33,464 bases of DNA from Parcubacteria bacterium C7867-006 (GTDB lineage Bacteria; Patescibacteriota; Minisyncoccia; Phycocordibacterales; DATDWN01). How positions within the stretch are numbered: position 1 is the stretch's first letter; each line of letters starts with the position of its first letter. Made by a program: the position numbers and the translations under genes. The DNA lies in the NCBI GenBank assembly GCA_001189155.1, contig LFCP01000006.1, forward strand, positions 1-33,464, given 5' to 3'. Positions 1,147-33,464 of this stretch are shown one piece after another. A model generated the notes under the pieces. It saw only the letters and a list, made by a program, of their open reading frames with translations, was not told the DNA's origin and ran no database searches.

Positions 1147-1165
1147 TGGGCACCCTCCTGCCACA

Positions 1166-11814: not shown

Positions 11815-11885
11815 GTGGTTTCCTTCCATATATTTCTTTTTATATTCAATTAATAAATTTTTAATAAATTAAAATTCGTCCCTAT

Positions 11886-11914: not shown

Positions 11915-11963
11915 ACAAACTTTTTACTTTTTTGTTGATAAAATTATTTAAAAATAAAAAGAG

Positions 11964-11992
11964 AAAACCACGTCGTTTTAGGACGTGGTTTT
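11964..11992 (-). terminator. Terminator downstream of rnpB
   Basis: AAAACCACGTC gttttag GACGTGGTTTT, perfect 11-bp stem, followed on the minus strand by CTCTTTTT. Confidence 0.8.
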
Positions 11993-12002
11993 CATCTTTA
12001 TT

Positions 12003-12343
12003 TGTTGTGTCTATAAGCCGAATTCTGTACCACATGAGATAGTTCTTGCGAAGCATCTCGTGTGGCGATAGTCATTTATCTGTCATCTACATTGCTGTAG
12101 TGATCAAGCGGCACTCCACATTGCTGTGGCACGGCCTTGCATTGAGGTAAGAATTTTGCCGTTTCACTCTTATATTTCTACAAGATTACTCCTTGCGGAG
12201 TTCCTCTGCTTTCGCTTTGGACGTCACTGCTCGCATCTCTTGGATTGCTCCAGACGGGCGTTACCCACTACCCATGTTAATCAAATAACCCAATGTTCGG
12301 ACTTTCCTCCCCCGCAAAAACGGAAGTAACTACCCAACACAAC
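12003..12343 (-). ncRNA. rnpB: RNase P RNA (class A)
   Basis: Minus strand contains GGGGGAGGAAAGTCCGAAC near the 5' end and ACAGAATTCGGCTTATAG near the 3' end, both universally conserved RNase P cores. Ends pair as P1 (TTGTGT/ACACAA). Confidence 0.95.
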
Positions 12344-12349
12344 AAATCA

Positions 12350-12385: not shown

Positions 12386-15300
12386 TTACGGAGCAGCTCC
12401 TCCAGCACCACCACCTGGAGTTCCACCACTAACACCGCCTCCACCACCATCACCACCGCCATTAGTTGATCCTCCACCATCATTTCCACCAGTAACTAGA
12501 TTACCTCCACCGTCTCCACCGTCTATTCCTCCACCTCCACCTCCACGACTTGCGCCACAAGAAGCCTCACCGTTGGTCCAGTTTGAGTTTGAGAATGTAG
12601 ATACATACGTCGTCAAGGCTCCAAGCATATCAGTAACGGAAAGATTATAAAGCGTGAAAGTTCCTGCTCCGGACCATGTTCTCTGTGTAGCACCTACTGA
12701 TGAGGTGATAGCTATGTCGTCTACACCATCGGTACATTGTGAACCGTTGTTTGAGTTGAGAGTGATTGTTCCTGCATTTGATACATTTCCACCTAGGATG
12801 ACATCTCCTGTTCCTGTGTTGGACCATGTGCCGTTTGAACCAACAGTTAATGTTCCACCCGTAAGCAAGTTGTAAGAAGCACCTTGAGATAATACACCTT
12901 TTGTTATTGTCACAGTCTGACCAGAAGAATTCCAATCAGCATTCGATGCCAAAGTAACAGTGTCACTGTTACTTGTTTTATTGATCGTAATATTTCCATT
13001 CAATTCATTTCCTCCATTATCAGTATAAGTCTGCGCAGCGGAACCAGTAAAAGACAAAGCTGTTGTACCACCATTAGCATTCGCATTAATAACAACGTTA
13101 CCTCTAACTTCCACAATCCCCGTATCCATCGCTCCATAGGTTTGAGTAAATGTATTCTCGATAATGAGAGTATCTCCAGTGCCTAATGTTAAAGTTCTGG
13201 CAGATGCACCGCAACTATACGTACACAACTCAAAATTGTAAAAAGTTTCACTTGTCGTCACGTCCATAGTATTACCCAAATCACCAATATATTTAACTGT
13301 GCCGTTATTGTGGTTAAATGTCCCGCCCCCAGTATGCGTCCAAGGGTCATTAGACACATCGTCTACAAGTCCAACACTGAGTGTTCCACTTGTACTGGTA
13401 AAGGTCCCACTAGAAAGTGTCAGACCACGAATGGTGAGGTTACCTGTAACACTTACCGTGTCGGATGACTTGTTAATGTTAAGTAGGCTCGTACCACCTC
13501 CGCTACTAGTTATCGTTTGATTGCCAGTAACCAGGAACGAAAGCACACCTGTACCACTAACTGCTGCATTTGAGTTTCCGATAACTACATTTCCTTGTGC
13601 TTCTATAGTACCAGTGTTAAAAAAACCATTAGTTTGGGTAAATGTTCCGGTTACTATTAATGTGTCTCCAGATGCAATAGTCAGCCCCCTACTTGGACTG
13701 CCACCGCAACCATACACACAGATCTCAAAGTTGTTGAATGTTTCACTTGTGCTTACATCCCATGTACTATTATCTCCTACATACTTAACTGTACCGCTAT
13801 TATGTACAAATGTGCCTCCAGCAGTATGCGTCCAACTATCATTTCCAATATCATCAGCTACACCGATTGTCATTGTTCCTGCGGTAGCATTAAATGTTCC
13901 TCCAGTTAAAACAAAACTTCTAAAATTGTCAGAACTTGATCCTCCATTAAATGTTCCTCCCACCTGTTTGTATGGAAGCGTTGTTACATTCCCCCCTGGT
14001 GTAAACGTTCCACTCAACACATACAACGTATTTGTGTTGAGAACTGTGAGTGCTCCACCTGTTGCGGTGAAATTGATATCAGCATCCTGACCTGAATCAT
14101 AGAGATCAAATTCAGATGCTGATATAGCCGAAGCATATTCATTTCTCACAATGACAAAGTTTTGGTAGAGGTTAAATCCAGTGAGAGTTCCGCTTGATTG
14201 ATTTGATCGAGAAATTGTTACAGCATCTTCTGTTGCACCATCAAGGAATGCTGTGATGGTATCTCCTTCATTCATCACTACTCCAGATACTGTATATGTA
14301 CCGTCAGCACCTGTAGTTGTTGTGTAGTCTCCTGCTCCTGAAACTTTGATACGCACTGTTCTACCGGATCCCATTGCCGTACTACCCTCGTCCGTGTACA
14401 CAGTTCCTGATACAGCCACAGTACACACACCGTTGGTCCAGTTGGAGTTTGTCATTGTCGAGTTGTATGGAGTGAGTGCTCCCAACATATCTGTCACAGC
14501 GAGGTTGTAAAGTGTAAATGTTCCTGCCCCAGACCATGTACGTTGTGTGCCACCAGATGATGATGTGATTGCGATGTCGTTTGTTCCGTCGGTACATTGT
14601 GAACCGTTACTTGAATTGAGTGTGATGACTCCTGCGTTAGTTACGTTGCCACCGAGTACAATATCTCCTGTTCCAACGTTTGACCAGGTACCACTAGCAC
14701 CGATGTAAGTAGTACTCGCTGTAGTGTAGTTGTAACTCGCGCCTTGTGAAAAAGTTCCTGTATTCACTACGAGACCATTTGTAAACGTATAGTTAGAAGC
14801 CAGAGTTACGGTATTAGCACCACTGGTCTTGTTTATACTAACCATGCCGGTTGGGGCTGTTCCTCCGGAGTTAGTGATAGTTTGTGATGCGGAGCCTGTA
14901 AAGTTAAAAGCTGTAGTGCCACCACTAAACGAGCTACCAATAATCACATTACCTTGTGCTTCAACTGTACCACTATTGCTAGCACCAGCAGTTGCAGTAT
15001 ATGTACTCGTAACGATAAGGGTGTCTCCTGATGAGATAGTCAGTGTACCACCACTGTTTACTGTAAAATTATAGAAGGTCTCACTACTAGCAAAGTCCCA
15101 AGTATTATTTCCAGACGAAAACGTCACTGTACCATTATTGTGATTAAACGTTCCCCCTGCAGTGTGAGTCCATGTGCCGGCAACATTAAGATTACCAGAT
15201 GTAGAAGTGAAAGTACCGCCTGCAAGAGTAAAAGAGTCAGCAGTTAGATCTCCGCCTGTTATACTGACTGTACCTGATGGCTTATTGATATTAATTTTGC

Positions 15301-18300
15301 CAATTCCTCCACCTCCGGAGTTAGTTATAACTTGATCCCCCGCGACCAAGAATGACACTGTGCCACTACCTGATGTAGATGAGCTTCCGATTGTTACACC
15401 ACCCTGAGCTTCAACTGTACCGGTATTGATGCCACCTGCAGTAGCAGTATATGTACCAGTAACAATAAGAGTGTCCCCTGATGCGATAGTTAGCATACCA
15501 CCCGCATTCAACGTAAGATTATAAAAAGTTTCATTAGTAGCTACATCCCAAGTCGTATTAGTATTTGTAGATGTCACTGTTCCACTGTTATGAGTAAATG
15601 TGCCGCCTCCAGTATGTGTCCAGCTACCACTGACCGAGAAAAAAAATGAAGTGGCTGTATAAGTTCCACCAGATAAAGTAAAATTATCTACTGAAATTGA
15701 CCCACTACCACCATCAAATGATCCGAGTGATTGATTATATGATCCGGTTGTAGTCATCTGCCCACCTGGTGCATATATCGCAGTGGAATCTTTGAGACGA
15801 ATAGTTCTCGCTGTACTCACTCTCCATTGACCAGATGCAAAGTTTGATGTGAATCCAATATCTGTTGTAGAACAACCCGTGCCAGAATCATTATCACAAC
15901 TTGAAAGATTTGTGTTCGTCAGAGCTGAGCCATCTTTACTATCAAATATTATCTCATCGCGGTAGATGGAGAGACCTGTACAACTGGAGTAGCCCGTACA
16001 TGATGAACCATATCGAAAAACAAGAGTTCCCTTTTCTGTCGCACCATCAATCCATATGGTGATAATGTCCCCTGCCGATGGCGCTGGTGTTACATTAGTA
16101 AAGCTAAAGTTTCCTGAACCATCTGCCGCGACTGTTGTTGCTGCACCACCGTTTACCGACATCTTTACATTCGGTGTTGTAGCGATCGGAGTGGACTCAT
16201 CTGTTCCATACAACGTTCCTGAAATTGTAACCGTAGCTATTGTTTGCGATGCTTGGACCAAAATACGCGATGCATATACATCGTTGTTGTTTGTTGTTGC
16301 CTTTGTGTCGAGGTCTCCGTTTGCCGGCATGGTCACAGCACTCGTTGATGTCGCATGGTTATCCGGAGATGTAACTGTTGAGTTTGTGAGGAGTGTCCCC
16401 GCAGAAGTGTTGAGCGTCACAACAGATGTTGAGTTATCTGCGGCATCAACTGCGTGCAGATATGTATTAGTCGCACCAGTCCATTCCGATGAATCCCACT
16501 TTGTTAAAAAATTTTGAAGTGATGTTCCAGAAGATATTTTTGTGTTGGCCAAAAGATACTGTGACTCGAGTTCACTAAAGTTAGAAGCTGTTAATTTGTA
16601 TATATCCGCGTTAACAACAGCTGCATATACATTTTGATTCGATGAATCCACTGTTATACCCCACCATGAATCTCCACTACGAATTTGATTAAAATTTCCT
16701 GACCCTGCTGATTGTTTATATATGCCATTACCATTGTTACTTCCCGCATATACATCATGTGTTGATGAATCCACGGCAAGTGAGTATGGTTCCGGGACAG
16801 TGACACCTGTATCATTAAAATTACCAGAACCTGCTGTTTGTTTATAAACATTTCCATCTTGTGTAACCGCATAGACGTCATGAGTCGATGAATCAACCGC
16901 TATACCTGACCAAAAACGACTTGTCTGGCCGAGAGCGACAAAGTTTCCACTACCTGCTGTTTGTTTATATATATCACCACTAAGTACTACAGCGTACACA
17001 TCATGTGTGGAAGAGTCGACGGCTATGCCCCACCACTGTCTAGTAGTCTGACTAAGTGCATTAAAACTTCCAGACCCTGCTGTTTGTTTATATATATCAC
17101 CATTAAATACTGTTGCATACACATCATGTGTGGAGGAGTCAACTGCTACTCCATACCAACCACGACTAGTTTGACTTAATGCATTAAAACTTCCAGACCC
17201 TGCTGTTTGTTTATATATATCACCTCCATCTACAACTACATAAACATTCTGATTTGATGAATCAACTGACATACCCATCCAACCTCGTGATGTTTCTCCG
17301 AGTGACACAAAACCAGTGGATGACCCCTTCACAGAATCTACTATAATTTTTGAATTATATATTGCATGTACGGTTCGGCTATCACCAGATCTAAATGCAA
17401 TTCTATAGTGTCGTCCGTTTGTTGGAGTAAACGCAGAAGATCGTATTCGAGTTGATGTGGCGTATCCACCACCAGTTAGAATATAAGCCTTGTCAGTCCA
17501 ACTACCAAAAGAGCCATCATCTTCCTGAATAGCAATAGTCGTAGTAGCTATATAATTTACAATCAATGCCTGACCAGCACCTCCGGCACCTCCAGTCACC
17601 GTACCTCCATTACCTGCTCGAAAAGCTCCTCCTCCACCTCCTCCAGGAGCATTACCTGCATTTCCATCAGTTTTAGATGTTGTATTTTTAGCACCACCAT
17701 CACCTCCCGGACCACCTGTACCAGCCACACCTGCACCTGTTGCACTATTTCCCGTGCCACTTCCACTCGCACCCTCTCCTCCACCAGCACCATATGTTGT
17801 TGTTCCTCTTCCACCGCCACCACCCGCGATACAAGTATCAGCAACACACCCTGTTGTGTTTCCAGTTGTCGACGCTGTAACTTGTCCACCACCATCACCA
17901 CCAGCAGCAACCACCACAGTCGAATCCCATGTTGAACTAGCCCCTGTAGCGCATGTACCAGAGGTACATCCAGCTGTTGAAGCGGCGACAACAAGAGTTT
18001 TAGTTAATCCTGACAACCCATAGACAGTCGAACTGGCATATTGACCTCCAGCACCTCCACTTCCTCCACTTGGGTTAGCTGCAGCTGGACCTCCAGCACC
18101 TCCTCCACCCCACAGCTGAATCGATGTAGACGCTGTACCACTTGGAATAACTACGGTTTTAGTTCCAGCTGTTGAGTACAATGTGGACGATGCAACCGCC
18201 TGAAGAGTTTTATACGTTATCTCTGCATAAAAAGTTGTTCCCCCATCCCATTTTGTAGAGTCATATGTCCAATACTTTGGCGATGCAAATGTTGATGTTG

Positions 18301-18862
18301 CAGTGTTACTGTATGTTTCCTCATTTCCAATTTCAATCTGTGTCTGTGTCGAAGTGGCAGCACTGCTTGCTGTATCAGCAAAACTTTGAAGCACAACGAG
18401 TCGAACTGCTTTTACACCTGTTGTTCCGCTTGCAGATGAGCTGATACGAGCGACATATTCTGTTGCAGTAGATGGCATCGTACATGCAGACGAACGAATG
18501 AGAGTATAACTAGTCGTTCCCCCAGGAATGTTTATCGTACAGTCATCTGTTCCTGTTCCATTTCTACGAAGTGTGATGGTGTTTGTAAAACTCGCAGATG
18601 TCGATGCAACAGCTTCAAAATATACAGTCACGGTTCCTGAATATTTTGTTGGATCAAAATAAATAATAGCGGATGAGGTAGCAACCGTGTTTGCTGCTGC
18701 TGCAAAGTATCCGTCGGTTATGTTTATCTCCTGTCGTATGTTCCATGCATTTGCGGCAGCTACTGGATCAGGAAACAAGAAACTAGAAAACACCAGCATC
18801 ATCAGTGCTATGGAAAGTATTTTGCTGTGTATTTTTTTTGATTTTTTCATAATAATTTTCAT
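12386..18862 (-). CDS. Giant secreted surface protein (2158 aa): Gly-rich region, beta-propeller-like repeats, carboxypeptidase-regulatory-like domains, tandem beta-rich repeats, Gly-rich tail
   Basis: N-terminal signal peptide (MKKSKKIHSKILSIALMMLVFSSFLFPDPVAAANAW). Repeats: VDSSTHDVYA..GDIYKQTAGSGSFNALSQTSR; THTAGGTFNHNNGTVTF...NTWDFASSETFYNFTVNSGGTLTISSGDTLIVTSTYT. Long single frame with no TGA. Confidence 0.9.
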   Translation of the reverse strand: MKIIMKKSKKIHSKILSIALMMLVFSSFLFPDPVAAANAWNIRQEINITDGYFAAAANTVATSSAIIYFDPTKYSGTVTVYFEAVASTSASFTNTITLRRNGTGTDDCTINIPGGTTSYTLIRSSACTMPSTATEYVARISSSASGTTGVKAVRLVVLQSFADTASSAATSTQTQIEIGNEETYSNTATSTFASPKYWTYDSTKWDGGTTFYAEITYKTLQAVASSTLYSTAGTKTVVIPSGTASTSIQLWGGGGAGGPAAANPSGGSGGAGGQYASSTVYGLSGLTKTLVVAASTAGCTSGTCATGASSTWDSTVVVAAGGDGGGQVTASTTGNTTGCVADTCIAGGGGGRGTTTYGAGGGEGASGSGTGNSATGAGVAGTGGPGGDGGAKNTTSKTDGNAGNAPGGGGGGAFRAGNGGTVTGGAGGAGQALIVNYIATTTIAIQEDDGSFGSWTDKAYILTGGGYATSTRIRSSAFTPTNGRHYRIAFRSGDSRTVHAIYNSKIIVDSVKGSSTGFVSLGETSRGWMGMSVDSSNQNVYVVVDGGDIYKQTAGSGSFNALSQTSRGWYGVAVDSSTHDVYATVFNGDIYKQTAGSGSFNALSQTTRQWWGIAVDSSTHDVYAVVLSGDIYKQTAGSGNFVALGQTSRFWSGIAVDSSTHDVYAVTQDGNVYKQTAGSGNFNDTGVTVPEPYSLAVDSSTHDVYAGSNNGNGIYKQSAGSGNFNQIRSGDSWWGITVDSSNQNVYAAVVNADIYKLTASNFSELESQYLLANTKISSGTSLQNFLTKWDSSEWTGATNTYLHAVDAADNSTSVVTLNTSAGTLLTNSTVTSPDNHATSTSAVTMPANGDLDTKATTNNNDVYASRILVQASQTIATVTISGTLYGTDESTPIATTPNVKMSVNGGAATTVAADGSGNFSFTNVTPAPSAGDIITIWIDGATEKGTLVFRYGSSCTGYSSCTGLSIYRDEIIFDSKDGSALTNTNLSSCDNDSGTGCSTTDIGFTSNFASGQWRVSTARTIRLKDSTAIYAPGGQMTTTGSYNQSLGSFDGGSGSISVDNFTLSGGTYTATSFFFSVSGSWTHTGGGTFTHNSGTVTSTNTNTTWDVATNETFYNLTLNAGGMLTIASGDTLIVTGTYTATAGGINTGTVEAQGGVTIGSSSTSGSGTVSFLVAGDQVITNSGGGGIGKININKPSGTVSITGGDLTADSFTLAGGTFTSTSGNLNVAGTWTHTAGGTFNHNNGTVTFSSGNNTWDFASSETFYNFTVNSGGTLTISSGDTLIVTSTYTATAGASNSGTVEAQGNVIIGSSFSGGTTAFNFTGSASQTITNSGGTAPTGMVSINKTSGANTVTLASNYTFTNGLVVNTGTFSQGASYNYTTASTTYIGASGTWSNVGTGDIVLGGNVTNAGVITLNSSNGSQCTDGTNDIAITSSSGGTQRTWSGAGTFTLYNLAVTDMLGALTPYNSTMTNSNWTNGVCTVAVSGTVYTDEGSTAMGSGRTVRIKVSGAGDYTTTTGADGTYTVSGVVMNEGDTITAFLDGATEDAVTISRSNQSSGTLTGFNLYQNFVIVRNEYASAISASEFDLYDSGQDADINFTATGGALTVLNTNTLYVLSGTFTPGGNVTTLPYKQVGGTFNGGSSSDNFRSFVLTGGTFNATAGTMTIGVADDIGNDSWTHTAGGTFVHNSGTVKYVGDNSTWDVSTSETFNNFEICVYGCGGSPSRGLTIASGDTLIVTGTFTQTNGFFNTGTIEAQGNVVIGNSNAAVSGTGVLSFLVTGNQTITSSGGGTSLLNINKSSDTVSVTGNLTIRGLTLSSGTFTSTSGTLSVGLVDDVSNDPWTHTGGGTFNHNNGTVKYIGDLGNTMDVTTSETFYNFELCTYSCGASARTLTLGTGDTLIIENTFTQTYGAMDTGIVEVRGNVVINANANGGTTALSFTGSAAQTYTDNGGNELNGNITINKTSNSDTVTLASNADWNSSGQTVTITKGVLSQGASYNLLTGGTLTVGSNGTWSNTGTGDVILGGNVSNAGTITLNSNNGSQCTDGVDDIAITSSVGATQRTWSGAGTFTLYNLSVTDMLGALTTYVSTFSNSNWTNGEASCGASRGGGGGGIDGGDGGGNLVTGGNDGGGSTNGGGDGGGGGVSGGTPGGGAGGAAP
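16575..17310 (-). repeat. Tandem repeats of about 41 aa (123 bp), six recognisable units, beta-propeller-like
   Basis: Units of the form GWYGVAVDSSTHDVYATVFNGDIYKQTAGSGSFNALSQTTR repeated head to tail with DNA similarity (TGCTGTTTGTTTATATATATCACC recurring). Confidence 0.8.
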
Positions 18863-18871
18863 ATATTTTTA

Positions 18872-19864
18872 CTAATAGTGATTGTTGTTCACTTGGTTGT
18901 AAACAAACTCAGATATCTGTGCTATAGCCGAGGAAAGATCCTCAAAACTTCCACCCCTACTCATCACACAAATCAAATATGGATGATCTGGATAATAAAC
19001 AATCCCACAGTCGTGTAACTGATTTAGCCCGTTGTCACTTCTAATACCAAATTTATGAGATACGACTATATTTTTAGGAAGTAGAGCTGTTAATCCTCTA
19101 TCAAATTTAGTGCGAGAGAGCATCTCCAGTGTCTTCTCCGAATACTCTTTGTTTACATATGAAGCGTTAAACAAAATCCTGAAAAATCCTGCATAATTTC
19201 TAACGTTTACAGGATATGGAACATTAAACTGTGGTTTACCCAAACCTAGGGCTTCAAAAACTTTATCCATTTTAGAATCATCAATCTCTTCAGCCAAAAG
19301 ATCTGCTGCATTGTTATCAGAATAATATGTCATATATTCCAATAATTCATTAACTGTATATTCCCCACCAACCTCTAAGACTTTTTCTGAAGGATAGTAC
19401 TGATCATCACTTAAAATCTTTGTTGTATATTTTATTTTTTTATCAAGAATACTTTTATCATCTTCAGCCAATTTCATATAAGAAATAAGTATGGGAACCT
19501 TTAAAAGACTGGAGCCGATAAACTCCTCCTTTTCATTTATTCCTATCCATGGACCATTATTCAAATCCCTGATATATACGGAGATAAAATCCACCTTATT
19601 TTTAGCAAGAAGAGTGTTAACAAAATTTATCATTTCGGGTTTTGAAATTTTTATTTGATCAAATATCCCATCACCTCCATCACTTGAACACTCTAAAAGT
19701 GGACTAGTAAACACTCCACCACCCTCATGCTTCTCAGTTAGTCTGGAAATTTTAGACTCAAATATAGGAGTGAAAAAATGATATTTGTGATTCAAATTAT
19801 AGACAACAAACTCCAATGCTATGCAGATGACTATTCCTATTAATATTTGATTATAATTTTTCAT
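18872..19864 (-). CDS. Membrane-anchored serine beta-lactamase-fold hydrolase / penicillin-binding-protein-like (330 aa)
   Basis: N-terminal hydrophobic anchor; SLLK (SxxK) in EFIGSSLLKVPILISYMKLAE; SDN in YYSDNNAADLLAEE; HKFG in IVVSHKFGIRSDNG at the KTG position. Confidence 0.8.
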   Translation of the reverse strand: MKNYNQILIGIVICIALEFVVYNLNHKYHFFTPIFESKISRLTEKHEGGGVFTSPLLECSSDGGDGIFDQIKISKPEMINFVNTLLAKNKVDFISVYIRDLNNGPWIGINEKEEFIGSSLLKVPILISYMKLAEDDKSILDKKIKYTTKILSDDQYYPSEKVLEVGGEYTVNELLEYMTYYSDNNAADLLAEEIDDSKMDKVFEALGLGKPQFNVPYPVNVRNYAGFFRILFNASYVNKEYSEKTLEMLSRTKFDRGLTALLPKNIVVSHKFGIRSDNGLNQLHDCGIVYYPDHPYLICVMSRGGSFEDLSSAIAQISEFVYNQVNNNHY

Positions 19865-19868
19865 AAAT

Positions 19869-22800
19869 TTATTGTGGTATTACTTCTACAGTTCTAGTCG
19901 CATAACCCCAGTTACCAGAACCATCAACCGCACTGTAGATAATTGTGTGAGTTGTTGTAGCTACTGGTGTAGTTGTTGGAGCTGTTGTGTCTATCATTAC
20001 ATTCAACATATCAACCCCATCAACATTGAAATATATACCTAGATTATTGTTTACATTTCCATTTTCATCTGTATCTGTAACTGTCGCACCAAGATCAACG
20101 TAATTTGTTCCGTACATTATTACTGCAGGATTATTCCCCATCATAGATATAACTGGTGATGTAATATCTGTTGATGTTGCTGTAGTAGGCGGCGTTGATG
20201 TTGATATAGATTCACAAGTTCCAGCTATAGAAACCATCGCGCCATTTCTCATCTTTAGACAGTATGGTTCATTTGTAACTTCATCATACAAAGTAATACC
20301 TGCTGGTTTTGTGCTTGTACCTATTGTTAGACTCTCTGTTACTATGTTTTTGAAGTATGCGATACCAGCGACAAACTTTGCACCTATAGTATCAAACTGA
20401 TCTACAAATGCCTGCATTACATCACTAAATGTTATTCCTGATGCTGTAGGAGTTGATGATGCAACTATTGCCTCTAGATTTGTTAGTCTTGCATCTATAC
20501 TTGTCATCTTCATATCTAGTTCCTGTATTGATTTTGCAAGAACTGAAGTTAGTTCATCATATCTTATAGATGTAGAAGTTCCGAAAGCATCATGATTTAC
20601 GAGTCGTGGTTCAAGAAGATCGACCTCATCAGCAATAAATCCTAAATGGCCTTCACTACTGTTGCTATAACTAAACTCTACTGGATTTAATTTCTTTACC
20701 AACTCTAGACCTGATGTAGATGATGCAATATTTTGCATATCAACCCGTCTCTGTGTTCCACAATTTGTTGAACCGCTATTCACAGTTAACTCGTTAGAGT
20801 TAGATAAGCATACTGCAGATGAACCTACAGATGTAGTAGACAGACCAGCCAAAGTTACATTTCCTTGAACTGCGAGAGTTGTTGTTGGAGTTGTTGTTCC
20901 GATTCCAACATTTCCAGAAACTTCAGTTATATTTGATGTTGATGAAGCAATAGCCTCAAGAGTTGCCAGTCTGGCTTTAATAGAATCAATCTCTGTTCCA
21001 GTAATATTGTCCGCGTGTAGAATTGTAGTATCAATATTTTGTGCTGTTAGTTTTGGAGTGACTATTTCCTGACTAGCCGAAAGTCTATCCGCTGTTATAT
21101 CTGATTGATCAAAAGATGTTGTTGTTGAAACAGAATTAAAGAGTGTTAATAAATCTGTTGATGTAGGAACATTTCCAGTAACTGTAAGACCAAAGTTTTT
21201 AAATGAACCAGAGTAGTATGTATTCTTTACGAATACTGATATTTTACCTTGACCTGGACCATTCCAATCTTCCAAAGCCTGACCAACAACCTGACCGGCC
21301 TTGATTGCTTTCATACCAACTCCAGGAGTAGATGAAAGTGTAATATAGTCACCAGCTTTGATTGGTCCATTTTGAGTATTTACTTTTGTTGGAATACGAC
21401 CGTTTAGTGCTACGGGAACTTTTCTTGCATCATATTCATCAAGATCACCTCCCAAAGTTAATCCTGGGTCTGTTGATATTATACCTAGAGGAGCTGTTGT
21501 GTTTGTGCTTGTTGCTATTTTTACAAAGTTTGTAGGAGTTGTGATAGCAACTATGTCTCCAGTTTCAACAGTATCATTTGTTAGATACATTTCAGCAACG
21601 TCGGAAGCTGCTGTAATAAACCCTCTTGAATAGACTCTTCCACCAGTAGATGTAGCGGCTATACAGTAACCGTCAGAGTCAACACAGATGTTTCCTCTAG
21701 GAATCATAATAGTTGTAGAAGAAAGACCGTTTCCAAACCAAACATGATTACCTTTAATCATAGGTGTTCCGGCACCAGCAGTAAGACCTGTTGTTGTCGA
21801 CATGAAGAATCCGATTGTTGTAGTTGCTGCGTTTGATTGGATTGATATAACTGGATTTGTTGAAGTTGCATATGTTGTTGGAGAAGTGGTACTCAAATAT
21901 AAGTTGTTACCAACACTTCTAAATGCATATGACAGATTACCAGCAACACCATCCTGAAGAGCAAGTTGGGGTGCAGTTGATCCTGCAACAGTCAATGCCC
22001 AAGCTGGTGTTGTTGTTCCAATACCAACCTTTCCACTCACAGCGTTCAAAGTGGCGATACCTCCAGAAATTATTTGCAAAACATTGGATGATACTTCATG
22101 TATTAATGTATCTCCAGCCATACCCACACCATCGAAGTAAATCCGGCTCATCGCATCAATCCCTATATCACCACTACCATTCACACGTAGCCTTTCAGTA
22201 CCATTTGTCGCAATGCTAATTAAACTAGAGCCTGGAGAGAAAATACCTGTATTTGTATTCGCTGTGAAAGAATAAGAAGGAGCTGTTGCGGTTCCTGAAG
22301 GAACTAATATCTGTCCAGTTGTTCCACTTATCGTTAGTGCTGCAGTAGATGTTGTTGCTGTTCCTGCTACTGTTGTTGTAGATAGATATAGATTTCCTCC
22401 TGCGTTTCGGAATGCCCATTGTGCTAGTCCTGCTCCAGCTGAGAGTGCGAATTGAGAACCAGTTGTAGAAGCGATTGTTAGATCATAGAAAGGTGTTGTT
22501 GTCCCAAAACCAACAGGGTTAACAAAATTTGTCTTTCCACCTGTTCCTGGGTTAAAGCTTATTTGCATCGCAGAACCAGTATTATCCAAAACAATCGCAT
22601 CAACTACTCCAGTCTTGGCAAATGAAAATTTATCAAGTGCACCATTAGCTCCCATATGCCACAAACTTCCACCAGCATTTTCAAATTGTATTTTAGGCGC
22701 CGCAGATGAATTTTCAGATTTTAGGTATATAAGAGGGTTTGTATTTGATGAACTTCCCTGAACACTTAAGACTCCTGCTGGTGTTGAAGTTCCTATTCCA

Positions 22801-25800: not shown

Positions 25801-28800
25801 CCTTCATCTTGTACCAAGTTATAACCACCTCCAGCCGCACATGATGCAGAATATACTAATCCAGATGTGTTTACATTTAGACAACCTGCTGTTGATGTCG
25901 CTAGTGATATTGCTCCTGTTGTTCCGTTGATTGTAAGTGCTGATGTTGATGTTGTTGCTGTTCCTGCTACTGTTGTTGTTCCTAGGTAGAAGTTACCTCC
26001 TGCGTTTCGGAATGCCCACTGTGCGAGTCCTGCTCCAGCTGAGAGTGAGAGTTGTGGTGCTGTTGAGGAGAACGGAGTTAATCTATAAACGGGAGTTGTT
26101 GTTCCAACACCAACAAAAGTATTTACTGTTGGAATACTTATGGCTTCATTTATTGAAGAATAAATAGAAATTCTCTGTCCTGGATTATCTGCGTTATCAA
26201 TATATCTAATTCCCCCTGCGCCTGGAGCGCCATCTCGCCCAAACTCAAGTGATGCTGTTTTTGTTTGCGCTGTATTTACGAACAACTGAGTATCATTACC
26301 AGAGTTTGAAACTGTAAGTTTAGAAGTACTATATGGATTTTCTGTACCAATTCCAACAGCTCCTCCATTTAAAATAGTAAACAATGTTGCAGCTCCTGAT
26401 CCTGTTGTTGTTGCTGTTCCTGCAACTGTAGTAGTTTGAGCATATAGGTTTCCTCCTGCGTTTCGGAATGTCCACTGTGCTATTCCTGCTCCGTCTGAAA
26501 GTGAGAGTTGTGGACCAGTAGATGATGCAATTGTTACACCGTAGTATGCAGTTGTAGTTCCGATTGCAAGAGAGCCTCCATGAGTAAATCTGGCTCTTTC
26601 AGTTCCGTTACTAAGGAATGTTGCTATTGGGAAGTTTGGTCCTGTAGTTGGGAAATCAGTTCTATCTACAATTAGAAAACCTTGATTTCCACCTGCTCCT
26701 CCAGACAATGTAAGGTCGCCAGTACCCAGTGTCATACTAGCAGCTGCCAAACTTGTAGACTTAAATCCAATTGAACCTGTACCGAAAACAATCTGTCCTC
26801 CAACATTCTGATTATCTCCGATAGTAAAGCTTGTTGGTCCATCAATATCACCAGTTAAATCAATACTTCCAGCAACACTCAATTTCTGACTTGGAGAAGT
26901 TGAACCGATACCAACATTTCCATTTCCTGTAACTATCAACCGTGTAGCTGATGACGAACCAATCACAAACTCTGGAACTCCTGAACCGAGAGCGTTTGGA
27001 TTTACAGATAGTAGACCCCATGGAGTTGTTGTTGCACCAATGCCAACATTTCCTGAAGCCATTATTTTCAATCTTTGTGTTCCAGCATTTTTAACACTAA
27101 AAATAGCATTAGTTGTATAATCATCAATACTATCAAACTCAAAAGCATCAACACCGCCAGGACTACCAAATGTCAACTTTTCACTTGTGCCTCTTTGTAT
27201 CTGCATATCACTCATAACCAGGCCGTTTGAACTTTCACTTGTGTTAAATCCACCCGTAGCTCTAAATTGACCGACAGTAAATATTTCACTAAAGCCTCCG
27301 TTTGTATATCTCATACCTCTTGTACTTGAATCTTGTGAGAAAGTGCCTCCTTCAAAAGCTAGTGTATTACTGAAAGTAGCAGCCCCTGTTGTTCCATTAA
27401 TACTTAACTGAGCATTTGTTGATGTTGCTGTTCCTGCAACAGATGTCGTTGATAGATAGAAATTTCCTCCTGCGTTTCGGAATGTGAACTGTGCAAGTCC
27501 TGCTCCTGCTGAGATTGCTAGTTGAGGACCGTTTCCTGTTTGAATACTTAATTGTGTGTTACTTATTCCTTGAGTTGACGTACCGATATAAGTAACCCCT
27601 CCATTATAATTTGCATAAATAGTCCCACCATTTGCAATCTTAAATATATCTGAACCACCTATACCAAACAACATATCTGTACCAGACATCCAAATTCGAT
27701 TATTTGACCCACCAAATTGCAACATTTTTGAAGAACCAGCAATATTTATATTTCCATTAAATGTGTTATCTGCAGTAGTTGTTGCAATCAAATTCCCCAC
27801 TGTTAACTGTGTGCCTGTAGCTATTAGGTTACCAGACGAGTTAGTTGTAATGATTGAGTTTGGAGAGAATGTTGTAGCTGAGAATACTTGTGAAGCTAGT
27901 GTTGAAGTTGAGATTGTTGACACTAGACCGTTTGATCCGATGAATGCGTATCCTTGTGCTACATCAGATAGTTTTGTTCCGTTTAGTGTTGTAGATGATA
28001 GTGAGAAGAGTCCAGCTGTGAATCCGATTGCTGTGTTAGTTGAGTTGTATCCAGCTACTGATGTGAATGGGAATGTTCCTGATAGGTTTAAGCAAGTTCC
28101 GTTGATTGCGAAACATCCTGCTGTGATGTTGAATCCAACGTTAGATGTTGATGTGGCTTGGCCACTGATGTTCAATCCTCTTACTGTAGTTGTTCCGAAT
28201 CCACCTAGTGCTATTTCAAGCATTGATATAGATGTCGTTGCTGTTCCTGCTACTGTTGTTGATGAAATGTAGAAGTTTGTTCCATCGTTTCTGAATGCTG
28301 TCTGTGCTAGTCCTGCTCCTGCTGAGAGTGAGATTTGAGGTGCTGTTGAGGAAGCGATTGTTAGATTGAACTTTGGAGTAGTTGTTCCGATACCAAGATT
28401 CCCACTACCTGTAAGCCTCATTCTTTCTGCTAATGTACCAGCGTAACGAGAACTGAATAATAGGTCAGCAGTTTCTGCACTTGTTGTGGTTGAAACCTGA
28501 AGAGCTTGGATGTTTGCACCAGTATATGCACTGAATCCTACGTTAGTGAAATTGAATTTAAATGTACCAGTATCACCATCAGTTCTGTTTGAGTTATACA
28601 AAGTGAAACCGTCATAGTTTGCAGAAGAACCAGATTGAGAAACTACCCCACCAGTATTAACAAGCAATCCTGAATTTATGTAAGCACCTGCACCATTACC
28701 ACCATTTACATGAAGGCTATAAGCTGTGCCAGATACTATGTTAGTGTTTGAGCCAATCGCAACTGCCCCATCATTTGTCAAATCTTGATCGTACAAAACT

Positions 28801-31800
28801 GTAAACAAAGGTGAATATGTTGATGAAGCAATAGCAAACAAAGTTGAATTATCAGCTAGTGCAGAAGTTGCTTGTAGAGAAATAGGAGCCACAGGTGTAG
28901 TTGTTCCAACACCAATGTAACCAGCATTTGTAATTGTTGTTGTTGCTGTTCCTCCAAAATATGCAGTATACGCTGAGAATATAGACGATGAAGCGTTTAA
29001 GAATCTGTTTACTCCTGTAAATGAGTTAGTATCAGACAATAGTGTAGATGATGCAAATGTCCATGTAGATGTTGAGTAGCTGTATACTAAACCGCTAGCA
29101 TTTACCCCAAGAGCTCCGTTTGATAGTGCTGGTAGTCTAAATGCTCCACTGATTGTTGATGAAGCGGTTGAGAAGAATCCGTTTAGTAGACCTAGTGTTG
29201 TAGAGGTAGAAGCTCCATATGATGTAAATGTGAATATTTGTGAAGCTAGTGTTGATGTTGAAACTGAAGATACTAGACCGTTTGATCCGATGAATGCGTA
29301 TCCTTGTGCTACATCAGATAGTTTTGTTCCGTTTAGTGTTGTAGATGATAGTGAGAAGAGTCCTGCTGTGAATCCGATGACTGTGTTAGTTGAGTTGTAT
29401 CCAGCTACTGATGTGAATGGGAATGTTCCTGATAGGTTTAAGCAAGTTCCGTTGATTGCAAAACATCCTGTAGTGATGTTAAAGCCAACGTTAGATGTTG
29501 ATGTGGCTTGACCACTAATGTTCAATCCTCGTACTGTTGTTGTTCCGAATCCTGAACCTGAGATAGTTAGAGCTGCAGTAGATGTTGTTGCTGTTCCTGC
29601 TACTGTTGTTGTTGAGATAAATAGATCACCTGCAAATGTTGCAAGATAATTTGGAGTTGATGTTGCTAAACCAAGAAGACCACTCTGATCCAATCTCATA
29701 GTTTCAACAGCAGTAATAGAGTTGTTTGGAGTTGTTAAGAAAGTAAGAGCTGTTCCTCCTGCTGAATCAGTAAATGCTTGAGTTGCAACTCCTCTAATAA
29801 CACCCGTCGCACCAAGGAATCCTGTGGTGCCATAACCCATAAAAGATATTTGTCCGATGTTGTTGTCTATTGCCAATGCTGAAGGGTTTGCGGCTCCTGT
29901 ATTTGATCGTCTAAATGTTAGGTTTGTATTGTTATTGAAAGATTCAATAGTAACTCGTGTTGGAGAACTGTCCGCTCCTGAGAATGTGGCAATGGTTGCC
30001 AAAGATGCAGCAGGAAGAGACGCTGTGTTGTTTGTAACAGTTAATTTTACATTTGATGTTGACGCTGTACCAATAGCAACTTGTCCTGCCCCATCCACTA
30101 CAAAGTGTGTAGCTGATGTGGAACCAATAACGAATTCTGGCACACCACTACCTAGTGCATTTGGATTTACTGAAAGTAATGCCCAAGGTGTAGTTGTTCC
30201 AATTCCAAACCTTCCTGCTGTAGTAAATCTTGCAACTTCTGTGGCATTTGTCTGCAACAATAGAGGATTATTTGTTGCTGTACCAATAGTCGCAAATCCC
30301 CCAGACCCATCATTTGCATACATGTATAACTGTGTAGTGTTTGACTGAACATTCAAGATTTGTTGACCTGTAGCACCATATACATTGAGTTTTGTCGTTG
30401 GAGCCGCAGTTCCTACTCCAACAAACCCAGTTGTCCTATCTACATACAGTGCAGGTGTGGATGTACCGACAGTGAATAATCCGTTACCCCAAGGCGTAGT
30501 TGTTCCTACTCCTACTGCTCCAGAAAATGTAGACGTCGCAGTAGTTGTTGCAATCAAATTCCCCACTGTTAGCTGTGTACCAGTAGCTATTAGGTTACCT
30601 GATGAGTTAGTTGTAATGATTGAGTTTGGTGAGAATGTTGTAGCTGAGAACACTTGTGAAGCTAGTGTTGATGTAGATACTGTAGATACTAGACCGTTTG
30701 ATCCGATGAATGCGTATCCTTGTGCTACATCAGATAGTTTTGTTCCGTTTAGTGTTGTAGATGATAGTGAGAATAATCCAGCTGTAAATCCGATGACTGT
30801 GTTAGTTGAGTTGTAGCCAGCTAATGATGTGAATGGGAATGCTGAAGATGATGCTGAGATACATGTTCCATTCACTGCAAAACATCCTGTAGTGATGTTG
30901 AATCCAACGTTAGATGTTGATGTAGCAGAGCCTGAGATGTTTAGACCAGATAGAGTTGTTGTTCCGAATCCTGAGTTAGATACTCGTAACCATGGAGCTG
31001 TTGTTGATCCAACCCATAGTGAGAATTCATCTCCTGCTACTGAGTTCACTGCTAGTCTAGCTGATGGTGATGATGTACCTACTCCTAGTAGACCACCAGA
31101 AGTGATTCTAGCTTTCTCTGTATTTGTTAGACTTCCATCATCCGAGATTGTTCCGAATGCTAGATAACCAGCACCGTTTCCTGATGTACTGTTTTCTTTT
31201 CTACCAGCAACTGTTGCAAAGTTTACTCTGTTACTTCCATCAAACATTCCACTTAGGGTTATCTGTCCTCCCTTATTTATTGCAAATGCGTCATCTGAAC
31301 CAACATTTAAATTACCCCAACTATCTGTCACTCCATTTGCTGAAGTTATATCAAGAGCTGTTACTGGATTTGATATTCCTATTCCAACGTTTCCTGTTGA
31401 AAAATCAACAACTAGATTTGACGCCCCAACCATCAATCCTCCTCTAAATGTAGATGTTGCTGTTGTTGATGTCGCAAGCAAGTTTCCAACTGTTAACTGT
31501 GTGCCTGTAGCTATTAGAGCAGAACCATCAAAGTTAGATGTGATGATTGAGTTTGGAGAGAATGATGTTGCTCCAGTTCCTCCGTATAGAACTCCGATAG
31601 ATGTTGTTGCTGAGACCACTCCAGCATTTGCTTGTAGAGGACCGTTTAATGAACCAATTGTTGTACCACCTTGTAGAGAAACACTTCCATCAAACTGTGA
31701 TGAACCAGTTCCGACACTTATTGATCTCCATCTTGCAGTTGGAGTGCCCAAAGTAAAGTTTGAGTTGTTATCTGAATATGGATTTAGAGATGCTTGCCAA

Positions 31801-33464
31801 CCAAGCTGGAAGTTTCCAACTAGCTGAACATACGCGTCAGAGAACCCTGCTCTACTAAACTGAATTGCCCAAGGGTTAGATGATGCACCCTGATCTACAA
31901 CCAACACAGATGAATCTGTTGATTGAGCCAGAACATGCAGTCTTCCTGTAGGAGCTGCTGTACCCACCCCAACAAATCCTGTATTTATATCAGCAACCAA
32001 ATTTGAACCGCCAACTGATAGTCCGCCCATCAATGTTGATGTTGCTGTTGTAGATGTTGCAAGTAAGTTACCTACTGTAAGCTGTGTACCAGTAGCTATT
32101 AGAGCAGAACCATCAAAGTTAGATGTGATGATTGAGTTTGGAGCAAATGATGTTGAACCTGTTCCTCCATTTGCAATTGTATTAACAAATGAAGTTAGAC
32201 AATTACCACCAACTGCGAAACATCCGTTAGTGATGTTGAATCCAACGTTAGATGTAGATGTAGCTTGACCAGAAATATTCAAACCTCTTACTGTTGTTGT
32301 ACCGAATCCTGAACCTGAGATAGTTAGAGCTGATGTAGATGTTGTTGCTGTTCCTGCTACTGTTGTTGTTGAGATAAATAGATCACCTCCTGCATTTCTG
32401 AATGTGAACTGTGCGACACCTGCTCCAGCTGAGAGTGAGAGTTGAGGAATAGTTGAAGAAGAAAGAGTTGTTAAATAATTACCGCTTGTTGTAGTTCCTA
32501 CCAAGAAATATCCTGTTCCAGTAAATCTACCTTTCGATGAGCTACTTCCGTTTATTCTTGTAAAGAATGATAAATCTCCAGATCCTGTTGTTGCAGAATG
32601 ATCCAGATATACAGCATCTAGACCTGCTATAGTAGACCCGTTTGCGTTTTGGAAATACAAGCTACTCCTATTACCAGCGGTTGAGTTTGAATTTCTTATT
32701 GCAATTGTTGGAGCATTTGGATTTCCTGCACCAATCGTTGAGTTATTGTCATTTGCTTCAACATATAGTTTTGTGGTTGGTGTTGTTGTTCCAATACCAA
32801 CATTTGAATTACCTGAAGTTCCAGCAGTGACAACAAATATTGTTGCAGTCGATGAACCAACAACAAATGCTGGAACTCCTGAACCTATTCCATTTGGATT
32901 TACTGACAACTGTGCCCAAGGTGTAGTTGTTCCAACACCTAGGAATCCTGCATTTGTAAATGTAGATGTTGCTGTTCCACCAAAGTATGCTGTGTATGCT
33001 GAGAATAGAGATGATGAAGCATTTGCAAATGTCTGTAGTGCTGTCCATGAGTTAGCGTTACTTAGGTTAAGTGAGATTGTAGAAGCAGAACCACCCAGTA
33101 GAGCTCCTAGTGTACCTGATACTGAAAGTGATGAGTTAGTTGTTACCGATGATGTAGCTACTGTGTTTAGTGTTCCATTTGATCCTGTTGTGTATGTTAC
33201 TCCATTAGATGTTAGGTTTGAAAGGTTTGTAATGTTCTGTGTAGTGTTAACGTTGAATGCATTACCTGAGTATGTAAGTCCTGTACCTGCTGTTGTTGTA
33301 GCACCACTTGATACTACTCCTCCAAATACTGCTAGACCACCATTAGATAGTGCTGGTAAGTTTAATGCTCCAGAGAATGTTGATGATGCTGTTGAGAATA
33401 GTCCAGCTGTGAATCCGATGACTGTGTTAGTTGAGTTGTATCCAGCTACTGATGTGAATGGGAA
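19869..33464 (-). CDS. Giant fibre/adhesin-like protein, 5'-partial (at least 4531 aa, open at the window edge), with S74-like intramolecular chaperone domain near the C-terminus
   Basis: The track ORF starts at an internal TTG (32909), but the same frame stays open upstream to 33464: ...FPFTSVAGYNSTNTVIGFTAGLFSTASSTFSGALNLPALSNGGLAV...NAGFLGVGTTTPWAQLSVNPNG. Many SVNPNALGSGVPEFVVGSSSATHFVV and LSLSAGAGLAQWAFRNAGGNLYLSTTTVAGTATTSTSALTI repeats. Confidence 0.92.
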   Translation of the reverse strand, partial: FPFTSVAGYNSTNTVIGFTAGLFSTASSTFSGALNLPALSNGGLAVFGGVVSSGATTTAGTGLTYSGNAFNVNTTQNITNLSNLTSNGVTYTTGSNGTLNTVATSSVTTNSSLSVSGTLGALLGGSASTISLNLSNANSWTALQTFANASSSLFSAYTAYFGGTATSTFTNAGFLGVGTTTPWAQLSVNPNGIGSGVPAFVVGSSTATIFVVTAGTSGNSNVGIGTTTPTTKLYVEANDNNSTIGAGNPNAPTIAIRNSNSTAGNRSSLYFQNANGSTIAGLDAVYLDHSATTGSGDLSFFTRINGSSSSKGRFTGTGYFLVGTTTSGNYLTTLSSSTIPQLSLSAGAGVAQFTFRNAGGDLFISTTTVAGTATTSTSALTISGSGFGTTTVRGLNISGQATSTSNVGFNITNGCFAVGGNCLTSFVNTIANGGTGSTSFAPNSIITSNFDGSALIATGTQLTVGNLLATSTTATSTLMGGLSVGGSNLVADINTGFVGVGTAAPTGRLHVLAQSTDSSVLVVDQGASSNPWAIQFSRAGFSDAYVQLVGNFQLGWQASLNPYSDNNSNFTLGTPTARWRSISVGTGSSQFDGSVSLQGGTTIGSLNGPLQANAGVVSATTSIGVLYGGTGATSFSPNSIITSNFDGSALIATGTQLTVGNLLATSTTATSTFRGGLMVGASNLVVDFSTGNVGIGISNPVTALDITSANGVTDSWGNLNVGSDDAFAINKGGQITLSGMFDGSNRVNFATVAGRKENSTSGNGAGYLAFGTISDDGSLTNTEKARITSGGLLGVGTSSPSARLAVNSVAGDEFSLWVGSTTAPWLRVSNSGFGTTTLSGLNISGSATSTSNVGFNITTGCFAVNGTCISASSSAFPFTSLAGYNSTNTVIGFTAGLFSLSSTTLNGTKLSDVAQGYAFIGSNGLVSTVSTSTLASQVFSATTFSPNSIITTNSSGNLIATGTQLTVGNLIATTTATSTFSGAVGVGTTTPWGNGLFTVGTSTPALYVDRTTGFVGVGTAAPTTKLNVYGATGQQILNVQSNTTQLYMYANDGSGGFATIGTATNNPLLLQTNATEVARFTTAGRFGIGTTTPWALLSVNPNALGSGVPEFVIGSTSATHFVVDGAGQVAIGTASTSNVKLTVTNNTASLPAASLATIATFSGADSSPTRVTIESFNNNTNLTFRRSNTGAANPSALAIDNNIGQISFMGYGTTGFLGATGVIRGVATQAFTDSAGGTALTFLTTPNNSITAVETMRLDQSGLLGLATSTPNYLATFAGDLFISTTTVAGTATTSTAALTISGSGFGTTTVRGLNISGQATSTSNVGFNITTGCFAINGTCLNLSGTFPFTSVAGYNSTNTVIGFTAGLFSLSSTTLNGTKLSDVAQGYAFIGSNGLVSSVSTSTLASQIFTFTSYGASTSTTLGLLNGFFSTASSTISGAFRLPALSNGALGVNASGLVYSYSTSTWTFASSTLLSDTNSFTGVNRFLNASSSIFSAYTAYFGGTATTTITNAGYIGVGTTTPVAPISLQATSALADNSTLFAIASSTYSPLFTVLYDQDLTNDGAVAIGSNTNIVSGTAYSLHVNGGNGAGAYINSGLLVNTGGVVSQSGSSANYDGFTLYNSNRTDGDTGTFKFNFTNVGFSAYTGANIQALQVSTTTSAETADLLFSSRYAGTLAERMRLTGSGNLGIGTTTPKFNLTIASSTAPQISLSAGAGLAQTAFRNDGTNFYISSTTVAGTATTSISMLEIALGGFGTTTVRGLNISGQATSTSNVGFNITAGCFAINGTCLNLSGTFPFTSVAGYNSTNTAIGFTAGLFSLSSTTLNGTKLSDVAQGYAFIGSNGLVSTISTSTLASQVFSATTFSPNSIITTNSSGNLIATGTQLTVGNLIATTTADNTFNGNINIAGSSKMLQFGGSNNRIWMSGTDMLFGIGGSDIFKIANGGTIYANYNGGVTYIGTSTQGISNTQLSIQTGNGPQLAISAGAGLAQFTFRNAGGNFYLSTTSVAGTATSTNAQLSINGTTGAATFSNTLAFEGGTFSQDSSTRGMRYTNGGFSEIFTVGQFRATGGFNTSESSNGLVMSDMQIQRGTSEKLTFGSPGGVDAFEFDSIDDYTTNAIFSVKNAGTQRLKIMASGNVGIGATTTPWGLLSVNPNALGSGVPEFVIGSSSATRLIVTGNGNVGIGSTSPSQKLSVAGSIDLTGDIDGPTSFTIGDNQNVGGQIVFGTGSIGFKSTSLAAASMTLGTGDLTLSGGAGGNQGFLIVDRTDFPTTGPNFPIATFLSNGTERARFTHGGSLAIGTTTAYYGVTIASSTGPQLSLSDGAGIAQWTFRNAGGNLYAQTTTVAGTATTTGSGAATLFTILNGGAVGIGTENPYSTSKLTVSNSGNDTQLFVNTAQTKTASLEFGRDGAPGAGGIRYIDNADNPGQRISIYSSINEAISIPTVNTFVGVGTTTPVYRLTPFSSTAPQLSLSAGAGLAQWAFRNAGGNFYLGTTTVAGTATTSTSALTINGTTGAISLATSTAGCLNVNTSGLVYSASCAAGGGYNLVQDEGGSLTARTTLNFVGAGVTASDSGAVTTVTISGTSFTGAANSIVTTDAGGALMATGTQLTVGNLIATTTATSYFLGTLGVGTSTPSGGVMEVVGSGLGLMLTEIGTPAAFSGRYANGTIGAATAASSGNLLAGLGGSGYTNTGWSSANKGLIGIYAAENFSSTNQGTYINFSTTDIGGTTRSEKMRLTDDGKLGIGTTSPFAKLSIDTSAATATPLAIKTNGFVGAYAATSTGIFMYDKAGTETLRIVAGDPDVTGSNWNTWNLYVGAQAGNAQPSANDSGSGWANTGVGYQSLYSNTSGNQNTAFGSLSALYTTTGIQNTAIGMSALQYNTTGRSNATLGSYALNNSVTGSYNVAIGHNALYRNSSASSTVAVGAFAGSGTGTYSNASSTYVGYQAGYSAGNGSNANTLLGYQAGYGVTTGAFNTIIGFNVDAPSVTGSQQLNIGNVLYGTSLYNGSSVSSAPVASGKIGIGTTTPVYSLTVGNSAINYGLGFTVDSNTDTTWYFRTQVGELDIMDIAQPTNAIYRFGQGGILGLNRDAGAINFGAFDGDTQIARSAAGVLEINNKTTGQYRDLNLRSLNPTSGNVGVASTTPWGLLSINPNALGSGVPEFVVGSSSATHFVVTGGGNVGIGTSSPRASLDVSQNGSLTTPSIMIGNDSANGYASGLYYDDVSNVLKVAITGGDKWNIAYNAITTAGGVAGPGMQNVTVSATTPGFTPYYGDNDTGMGWASDNILSLIAGGINSLNINNGYTGVGTTTATYLLTSASSTAPQLSLSAGAGLAQWAFRNAGGNLYLSTTTVAGTATTSTSALTINGTTGAISLATSTTGCINVSSSGLLYSGSCGSGSSQWTTGAGSAIYYNTANVGIGSTTPYAKLSVEEAATMNVPSFIIKDTTGGNELQFFTNSNGSSIQEMKTTAGTLIISQGNGQAIRLDQNDSIIFQPANGLTKALLKANGNFGLGSTTPWAQLSVNPDALGSGVPEFVVGSSSATRLIVTGNGNVGIGTSTPAGVLSVQGSSSNTNPLIYLKSENSSAAPKIQFENAGGSLWHMGANGALDKFSFAKTGVVDAIVLDNTGSAMQISFNPGTGGKTNFVNPVGFGTTTPFYDLTIASTTGSQFALSAGAGLAQWAFRNAGGNLYLSTTTVAGTATTSTAALTISGTTGQILVPSGTATAPSYSFTANTNTGIFSPGSSLISIATNGTERLRVNGSGDIGIDAMSRIYFDGVGMAGDTLIHEVSSNVLQIISGGIATLNAVSGKVGIGTTTPAWALTVAGSTAPQLALQDGVAGNLSYAFRSVGNNLYLSTTSPTTYATSTNPVISIQSNAATTTIGFFMSTTTGLTAGAGTPMIKGNHVWFGNGLSSTTIMIPRGNICVDSDGYCIAATSTGGRVYSRGFITAASDVAEMYLTNDTVETGDIVAITTPTNFVKIATSTNTTAPLGIISTDPGLTLGGDLDEYDARKVPVALNGRIPTKVNTQNGPIKAGDYITLSSTPGVGMKAIKAGQVVGQALEDWNGPGQGKISVFVKNTYYSGSFKNFGLTVTGNVPTSTDLLTLFNSVSTTTSFDQSDITADRLSASQEIVTPKLTAQNIDTTILHADNITGTEIDSIKARLATLEAIASSTSNITEVSGNVGIGTTTPTTTLAVQGNVTLAGLSTTSVGSSAVCLSNSNELTVNSGSTNCGTQRRVDMQNIASSTSGLELVKKLNPVEFSYSNSSEGHLGFIADEVDLLEPRLVNHDAFGTSTSIRYDELTSVLAKSIQELDMKMTSIDARLTNLEAIVASSTPTASGITFSDVMQAFVDQFDTIGAKFVAGIAYFKNIVTESLTIGTSTKPAGITLYDEVTNEPYCLKMRNGAMVSIAGTCESISTSTPPTTATSTDITSPVISMMGNNPAVIMYGTNYVDLGATVTDTDENGNVNNNLGIYFNVDGVDMLNVMIDTTAPTTTPVATTTHTIIYSAVDGSGNWGYATRTVEVIPQ
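20500..20765 (-). other. S74-like (endosialidase-type) intramolecular chaperone domain inside the giant protein
   Basis: QRRVDMQNIASSTSGLELVKKLNPVEFSYSNSSEGHLGFIADEVDLLEPRLVNHDAFGTSTSIRYDELTSVLAKSIQELDMKM resembles the S74 pattern (..LnPveFsY...GfiAdEv....P.lV......yd.lt..L..siqel). Confidence 0.8.
21205..21645 (-). other. Peptidase-G2 / IMC-autoproteolysis-like region inside the giant protein
   Basis: ASDVAEMYLTNDTVETGDIVAITTP...APLGIISTDPGLTLGGD...RKVPVALNGRIPTKVNTQNGPIKAGDYITLSSTPGVGMKAIKAGQVVGQALEDW resembles the layout seen before autoprocessing chaperones in tail-fibre-like proteins. Confidence 0.55.
24505..25010 (-). repeat. YadA-head-like short repeats inside the giant protein
   Basis: GVGYQSLYSNTSGNQNTAFGSLSALYTTTGIQNTAIGMSALQYNTTGRSNATLGSYALNNSVTGSYNVAIGHNALYRNSS...VGYQAGYS...LLGYQAGYG: N-x-A-x-G left-handed beta-roll repeats typical of trimeric adhesin heads. 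Confidence 0.8.
27888..28170 (-). repeat. Copy A of long internal repeat (VAGYNSTNT.IGFTAGLFSLSSTTLNGTKLSDVAQGYAFIGSNGLVS)
   Basis: 92 bp (27922-28013) identical to 29272-29363; the first 86 bp also identical to 30688-30773. Confidence 0.95.
29231..29515 (-). repeat. Copy B of long internal repeat
   Basis: Exact 92-bp match to copy A (29272-29363); a separate 59-bp segment (29365-29423) is identical to the window's last 59 bases. Confidence 0.95.
30644..30931 (-). repeat. Copy C of long internal repeat
   Basis: 86-bp exact match (30688-30773) to copies A and B, then divergence. Confidence 0.95.
33384..33464 (-). repeat. Copy D of long internal repeat, truncated by the window edge
   Basis: 33406-33464 is identical to 29365-29423 in copy B. 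Confidence 0.9.

Follow-up and report, generated by a model that had tools for sequence, protein, structure and literature searches.

A giant fibre gene and a gene for a membrane-anchored PBP-A-like enzyme recur as neighbours in Patescibacteria

The window analysed here, a complete contig of 33,464 bp (C5), belongs to a genome of 674 kb that is 98% complete. Three open reading frames adjoin one another on its minus strand: a giant fibre gene that is open on its 5′ side, a gene for a 330-aa enzyme, and a gene for a second giant protein of 2158 aa; the latter two start with ATG (Table 1). The gap between the fibre stop and the enzyme start is 4 nt, and that between the enzyme stop and the giant start is 9 nt. 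A sequence-only reading of this DNA had described three adjoining genes with these narrow gaps, and the coordinates agree with it, the fibre being truncated at its 5′ side. The run may be transcribed as a single 21-kb transcript. Its downstream end is marked, directly past the giant, by rnpB and a terminator-like hairpin, which are followed by a TPR-containing membrane protein, MurJ and LepA. At the other end of the contig, a 249-aa lipoprotein-like reading frame (415–1164, minus strand) adjoins a TsaE gene that is short at its C-terminus. This frame has no Pfam match and a GC content of 47%, against 31–46% elsewhere, so that a foreign origin or mis-assembly may be considered.

Table 1. Positions of the features discussed, numbered along the window
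Feature	Coordinates	Strand	Remark
Giant repeat fibre, at least 4531 aa	19869..33464	-	5′-truncated by contig end
Conserved fibre module A1, ~145 aa, 'DVAEMY..GDY..GQALED'	21201..21638	-	Nearest fold: phage pre-neck-appendage-type domain
S74-like (endosialidase chaperone) segment	20619..20732	-	Below Pfam cut-off (19.7 bits, cut-off 22)
Fibre C-terminal bacterial-surface Ig-like domain	19881..20150	-	Below Pfam cut-off
PBP-A-like membrane-anchored serine hydrolase	18872..19864	-	Class A beta-lactamase fold
Enzyme N-terminal membrane anchor helix, residues 4–28	19781..19855	-	
Enzyme SxxK motif, S119–K122	19499..19510	-	Ser and Lys invariant in 122 homologues
Enzyme SDN motif, residues 182–184	19313..19321	-	
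Enzyme KFG motif, residues 271–273	19046..19054	-	Replaces KTG/KSG
Secreted giant, 2158 aa	12386..18862	-	Signal peptide, Gly-rich, propeller-like and S/T-rich repeats
rnpB, RNase P RNA class A	11998..12345	-	97.6 bits, E 1.3e-30; gathering score 100
Intrinsic-terminator-like hairpin after rnpB	11963..11993	-	Strong
Large protein, hydrophobic N-terminus, C-terminal TPRs	9388..11829	-	Wzy/O-antigen-ligase-like by eye; conserved flank
MurJ lipid II flippase	7704..9383	-	Conserved flank

The 330-aa protein is a member of PF13354 (Beta-lactamase2, E 9e-36). It also matches the NCBIfam model bla_class_A, with a score of 82.6 bits that does not reach the equivalog cut-off of 200. Several features were found among its 122 homologues. 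One is that, besides the SxxK residues, SDN is conserved at 97–100%. Another is that K-x-G is nearly invariant with Phe as the middle residue in 110 of the 122, neither Thr nor Ser being among the residues seen at that position. It was also found that no conserved Glu lies between SDN and KFG to serve as the omega-loop general base of beta-lactamases (E166), and that the family carries conserved H-D-C-G residues beside KFG. The AlphaFold model (mean pLDDT 90) consists of the N-terminal helix, a loose linker of about 45 aa and a class A fold, for which the best match in the PDB is PBP-A (E 3.6e-15); PBP-A is also among the top sequence matches to solved structures. PBP-A is a DD-carboxypeptidase/endopeptidase that lacks the omega-loop Glu (PMC11189452). 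Judged by motifs, fold and this likeness, the enzyme looks like a membrane-anchored relative of the PBP-A-like serine DD-peptidases, and its DD-peptidase activity is predicted. The serine beta-lactamase fold assigned by the earlier reading agrees with the PF13354 and PBP-A matches, and the suggested editing of peptidoglycan suits an enzyme of the DD-peptidase type.

The nearest relatives that carry the enzyme are a Patescibacteria metagenome-assembled genome (JACDEV010000001.1) and Ca. Zambryskibacteria (PPGI01000002.1; genome G006), so the source genome probably belongs to that lineage. It encodes other wall proteins, namely two PBPs (one bifunctional, the other monofunctional), an S11 carboxypeptidase and MurJ, as well as a second homologue of the enzyme on contig C3 (7567–8529), for which a recent duplication was ruled out by its distant position on the tree. 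A foreign-looking gene for a 226-aa secreted protein adjoins this second homologue (G000:C3:6778-7458, locus L005). In Falkowbacteria-type genomes (L131, L150, L152, L199), members of the enzyme family lie, as judged by eye, with an EnvC-like M23 peptidase gene on one side and a WecG/TagA-like gene on the other, the product of the latter having a NUDIX-like C-terminus. The PBP-A-like family also occurs in metagenome-assembled genomes of Bacteroidota, Nitrospirota, Omnitrophota and Elusimicrobiota (L133–L189), there without a neighbouring fibre module.

The contig ends within one of the repeats of the fibre gene: its last 87 bp recur three more times at about 90–92% identity. The fibre is therefore truncated and has no start, its true length exceeds 4531 aa, and the listed TTG start is unreliable. 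The missing N-terminus was not found on any other contig of the genome. A further Ser/Thr/Gly-rich surface gene is likewise broken by a contig end (G000:C1:197575-199521), and surface repeats seem to break the assembly of this genome. The A1 module is common to the fibres of relatives and has no match in Pfam. Its modelled fold leads to phage pre-neck appendage domains (best viral match E 1.7e-12, 30% identity). The model of the fibre C-terminus has a mean pLDDT of 53 and is usable in the A1 and Ig parts only, so that the viral fold search was interpreted for these two parts. The fibre has no match among the PHROGs. The Ig-like domain scores 21.4 bits against a Pfam cut-off of 27 in the window, and above the cut-off in the fibre of G003, a relative with a signal-like N-terminus. 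Fibre C-termini have no conserved sorting motif; they end in the Ig-like domain or in acidic or proline-rich tails. As to the S74-chaperone fibre of the earlier description, an S74-like segment is present, but it stays below the Pfam cut-off, and S74 occurs in only some family members, another domain taking its place elsewhere. It is thus not the conserved feature of the fibre.

The giant of 2158 aa has a signal peptide-like N-terminus, Gly-rich regions at about residues 245–440 and 2100–2158, and six propeller-like repeats of about 40 aa that are visible in the sequence at about residues 510–770. Same-genus genomes conserve the rnpB-TPR-MurJ-LepA block, whereas the surface genes upstream of it differ. 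At this site, the giant stands alone in G002 and G010, without fibre or enzyme; G006 has a fibre, an enzyme and other genes, the giant being absent; and in G011 (L235 568-10759), which has no enzyme there, a single reading frame joins propeller repeats of the giant type to an S74/Ig end of the fibre type, an indication that surface modules recombine. The rnpB gene with its terminator-like hairpin (11963–12345, minus strand) occupies the same position in several same-genus genomes. Among 118 genomes, 10 others encode relatives of the giant (P0001), most of them lacking the enzyme, and the giant is absent from the other fibre-enzyme loci examined. The earlier reading had treated fibre, enzyme and giant as one unit and had staked this on the co-occurrence of the three genes in relatives. 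What was found is that the pair of fibre and enzyme is conserved while the trio is not, the giant occurring without the pair and the pair without the giant; the three-gene unit was consequently rejected. The giant is a local neighbour, an independent occupant of the variable surface-gene site upstream of rnpB-MurJ.

The pair was then followed through 297 genomes of the order, in which the fibre was tracked by its module. The fibre module is present in 89 genomes and the enzyme family in 78; both occur in 28, against about 23 expected under independence. Each gene is often found singly, so neither strictly needs the other. In 13 of the 28 genomes with both genes, where 0.24 would be expected, the enzyme lies less than 6 kb downstream of the fibre on the same strand (nominal P about 2e-20, a significance inflated by the relatedness of the genomes). 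This arrangement spans 8 families, and the enzyme is upstream of the fibre in none of the 28. Named contigs with the pair include those of Zambryskibacteria, Taylorbacteria, Magasanikbacteria, Nomurabacteria and Doudnabacteria. A convergent orientation was seen in two genomes of the order and on two named contigs. On the enzyme tree, the fibre-linked members cluster (10 changes, against a mean of 22.3 after shuffling) and yet fall into several groups, which suggests that the linkage was retained, lost or regained several times over. Between fibre divergence and enzyme divergence there is only a weak correlation (Mantel r 0.17, p 0.03), and strict co-evolution was dropped on this ground. The fibre-enzyme pair, with the fibre first, is largely a real conserved unit.

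In relatives, the clustering of neighbouring genes gives a longer order: the fibre, the enzyme, a protein of about 138 aa with one transmembrane segment, a secreted dockerin protein of about 441 aa, and two or three cohesin-type proteins. The ~138-aa protein has no Pfam match; in searches across the order, 21 of the genomes listed have both it and the fibre, and it follows the fibre in 17 of them and never precedes it. The dockerin protein is downstream in 8 of 15 genomes with both, again never upstream. A Dockerin_1 domain was detected in 11 of 16 members of the dockerin family and a Cohesin domain in 9 of 32 cohesin-type proteins (both at E ≤ 1e-3), some of the latter having C-terminal membrane segments; in the G003 cluster the two domains score 34.5 bits (cut-off 22.9) and 25.2 bits (cut-off 24.1), respectively. 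No dockerin, cohesin-type or clear ~138-aa homologue of these families was detected in the source genome, and the locus in the window is accordingly a reduced version. Dockerin and cohesin genes beside Patescibacteria fibres were seen at L122 (9486-13336), L049 (5470-8671), L127, L156, L172, L202, L204 and L221; no obvious cellulosome genes and no glycoside hydrolases were noticed at such loci.

The explanation that we favour, to which we give an about even chance, is that the fibre and the anchored PBP-A-like peptidase form the core of an appendage cluster in which the peptidase opens the cell's own wall for the fibre, the giant being independent. It starts from what is observed, that is, the gene order and its conservation, the fold, the catalytic motifs and the membrane anchor. 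The two genes would be the core of a surface-appendage cluster common to many Patescibacteria. The secreted fibre would end in phage-appendage-like modules, with an S74-type chaperone in some members. The predicted DD-peptidase, acting as a carboxy- or endopeptidase near the membrane, would cut stem peptides in the peptidoglycan of the cell that carries it, and this cutting would let the fibre thread through the wall or seat in it. The most likely task of the enzyme, as we infer it, is thus to trim the own peptidoglycan at the site where the fibre is mounted; a use of the fibre in attachment may follow. In many relatives, the ~138-aa, dockerin and membrane-anchored cohesin proteins follow and probably dock surface proteins. 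Several observations count against this explanation: KFG differs from KTG/KSG, the co-divergence is weak, each gene often occurs alone, and some pairs are convergent. More tentatively, and with somewhat less than an even chance, the cluster may represent a new surface apparatus of Patescibacteria for contact with host cells. It would be composed of the giant fibre with its phage-type tip modules and a dedicated PBP-A-like peptidase for opening or reshaping the wall, joined in full versions by the ~138-aa membrane partner and by cohesin-dockerin coupling through which surface proteins are mounted on the cell.

The main rival is that fibre, enzyme and giant merely gather at exchange-prone sites, a hot spot of surface genes with no shared mechanism. 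The differing surface genes upstream of rnpB-MurJ in same-genus genomes, the weak co-divergence and the recombined chain of G011 speak for it, and it suits the giant well. It suits the fibre-enzyme pair poorly: gene order and strand stay fixed across many families although the chromosomal sites differ, the intergenic gaps are near zero, and a small conserved partner of ~138 aa accompanies the pair. We consider it unlikely, at a chance of somewhat under one in four. Some Patescibacteria live as epibionts, and this, together with the linkage to a fibre, would fit an enzyme that targets another cell's wall, a neighbour's or a host's, where the two cells touch. The anchor and the linker of about 45 aa restrict the reach of such an enzyme, however, and the family also lies beside wall genes without a fibre and in other phyla, which leaves this a distinctly unlikely target. 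It is still less probable that the acyl-enzyme step serves, in the manner of a sortase, to form a covalent bond between peptidoglycan and the fibre or some other protein. The same fold class does make acyl-enzymes, as in the PBP-A-penicillin complex (2j8y), and the conserved KFG and H-D-C-G residues are unusual, but the fibre C-termini offer no conserved sorting motif. A class A beta-lactamase for antibiotic resistance, beside the fibre by accident, would account for the PF13354 and bla_class_A matches; it was rejected on the motifs (no omega-loop Glu; KFG, not KTG), and the score far under the cut-off, the closer fold match to PBP-A and the recurrence of the fibre linkage leave it very improbable. 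That the fibre is a prophage remnant, as the likeness of its tip module to phage appendage domains might suggest, is hardly credible, since no other phage gene was recognised in the window, the fibre has no PHROG match, the G003 relative has a signal-like N-terminus, and the cellular context is conserved.

Patescibacteria are tiny, mostly uncultured bacteria. For the study of their surface structures and attachment, the recurring order of fibre, wall peptidase, small membrane protein, dockerin and cohesins supplies named, testable parts in many genomes, and it suggests a mode of surface-appendage assembly that has not been described. No account of these parts combined in Patescibacteria was found in the open-access papers searched. 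The association also suggests a function for the PBP-A-like family, which is widespread and would be labelled β-lactamase by automated annotation.

Among known systems, PBP-A of Thermosynechococcus elongatus (PDB 2j7v, 2j9o) shares with the enzyme the class A fold, SxxK and the absence of the omega-loop Glu; the enzyme differs in its identity of only about 19%, in KFG, in the conserved H-D-C-G residues and in the neighbouring fibre gene, and its function is predicted. With class A beta-lactamases it has the fold, SxxK and SDN in common, but it lacks both the catalytic omega-loop Glu and KTG/KSG and scores far below the curated cut-offs. The loci of relatives resemble cohesin-dockerin systems such as cellulosomes in carrying type I dockerin and cohesin domains in neighbouring genes, and non-cellulosomal cohesin-dockerin modules are described in giant ORFs of Omnitrophota (PMC10066038). 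Unlike in those systems, these genes, none of which was detected in the source genome, adjoin fibre and DD-peptidase-like genes. Finally, the A1 fold and the S74-like segment are like the tips of phage appendages and tail fibres (the pre-neck appendage barrel and the S74 endosialidase chaperone); here, with S74 below its cut-off and A1 without a Pfam match, these modules belong to a giant protein of a bacterium, encoded among bacterial genes.
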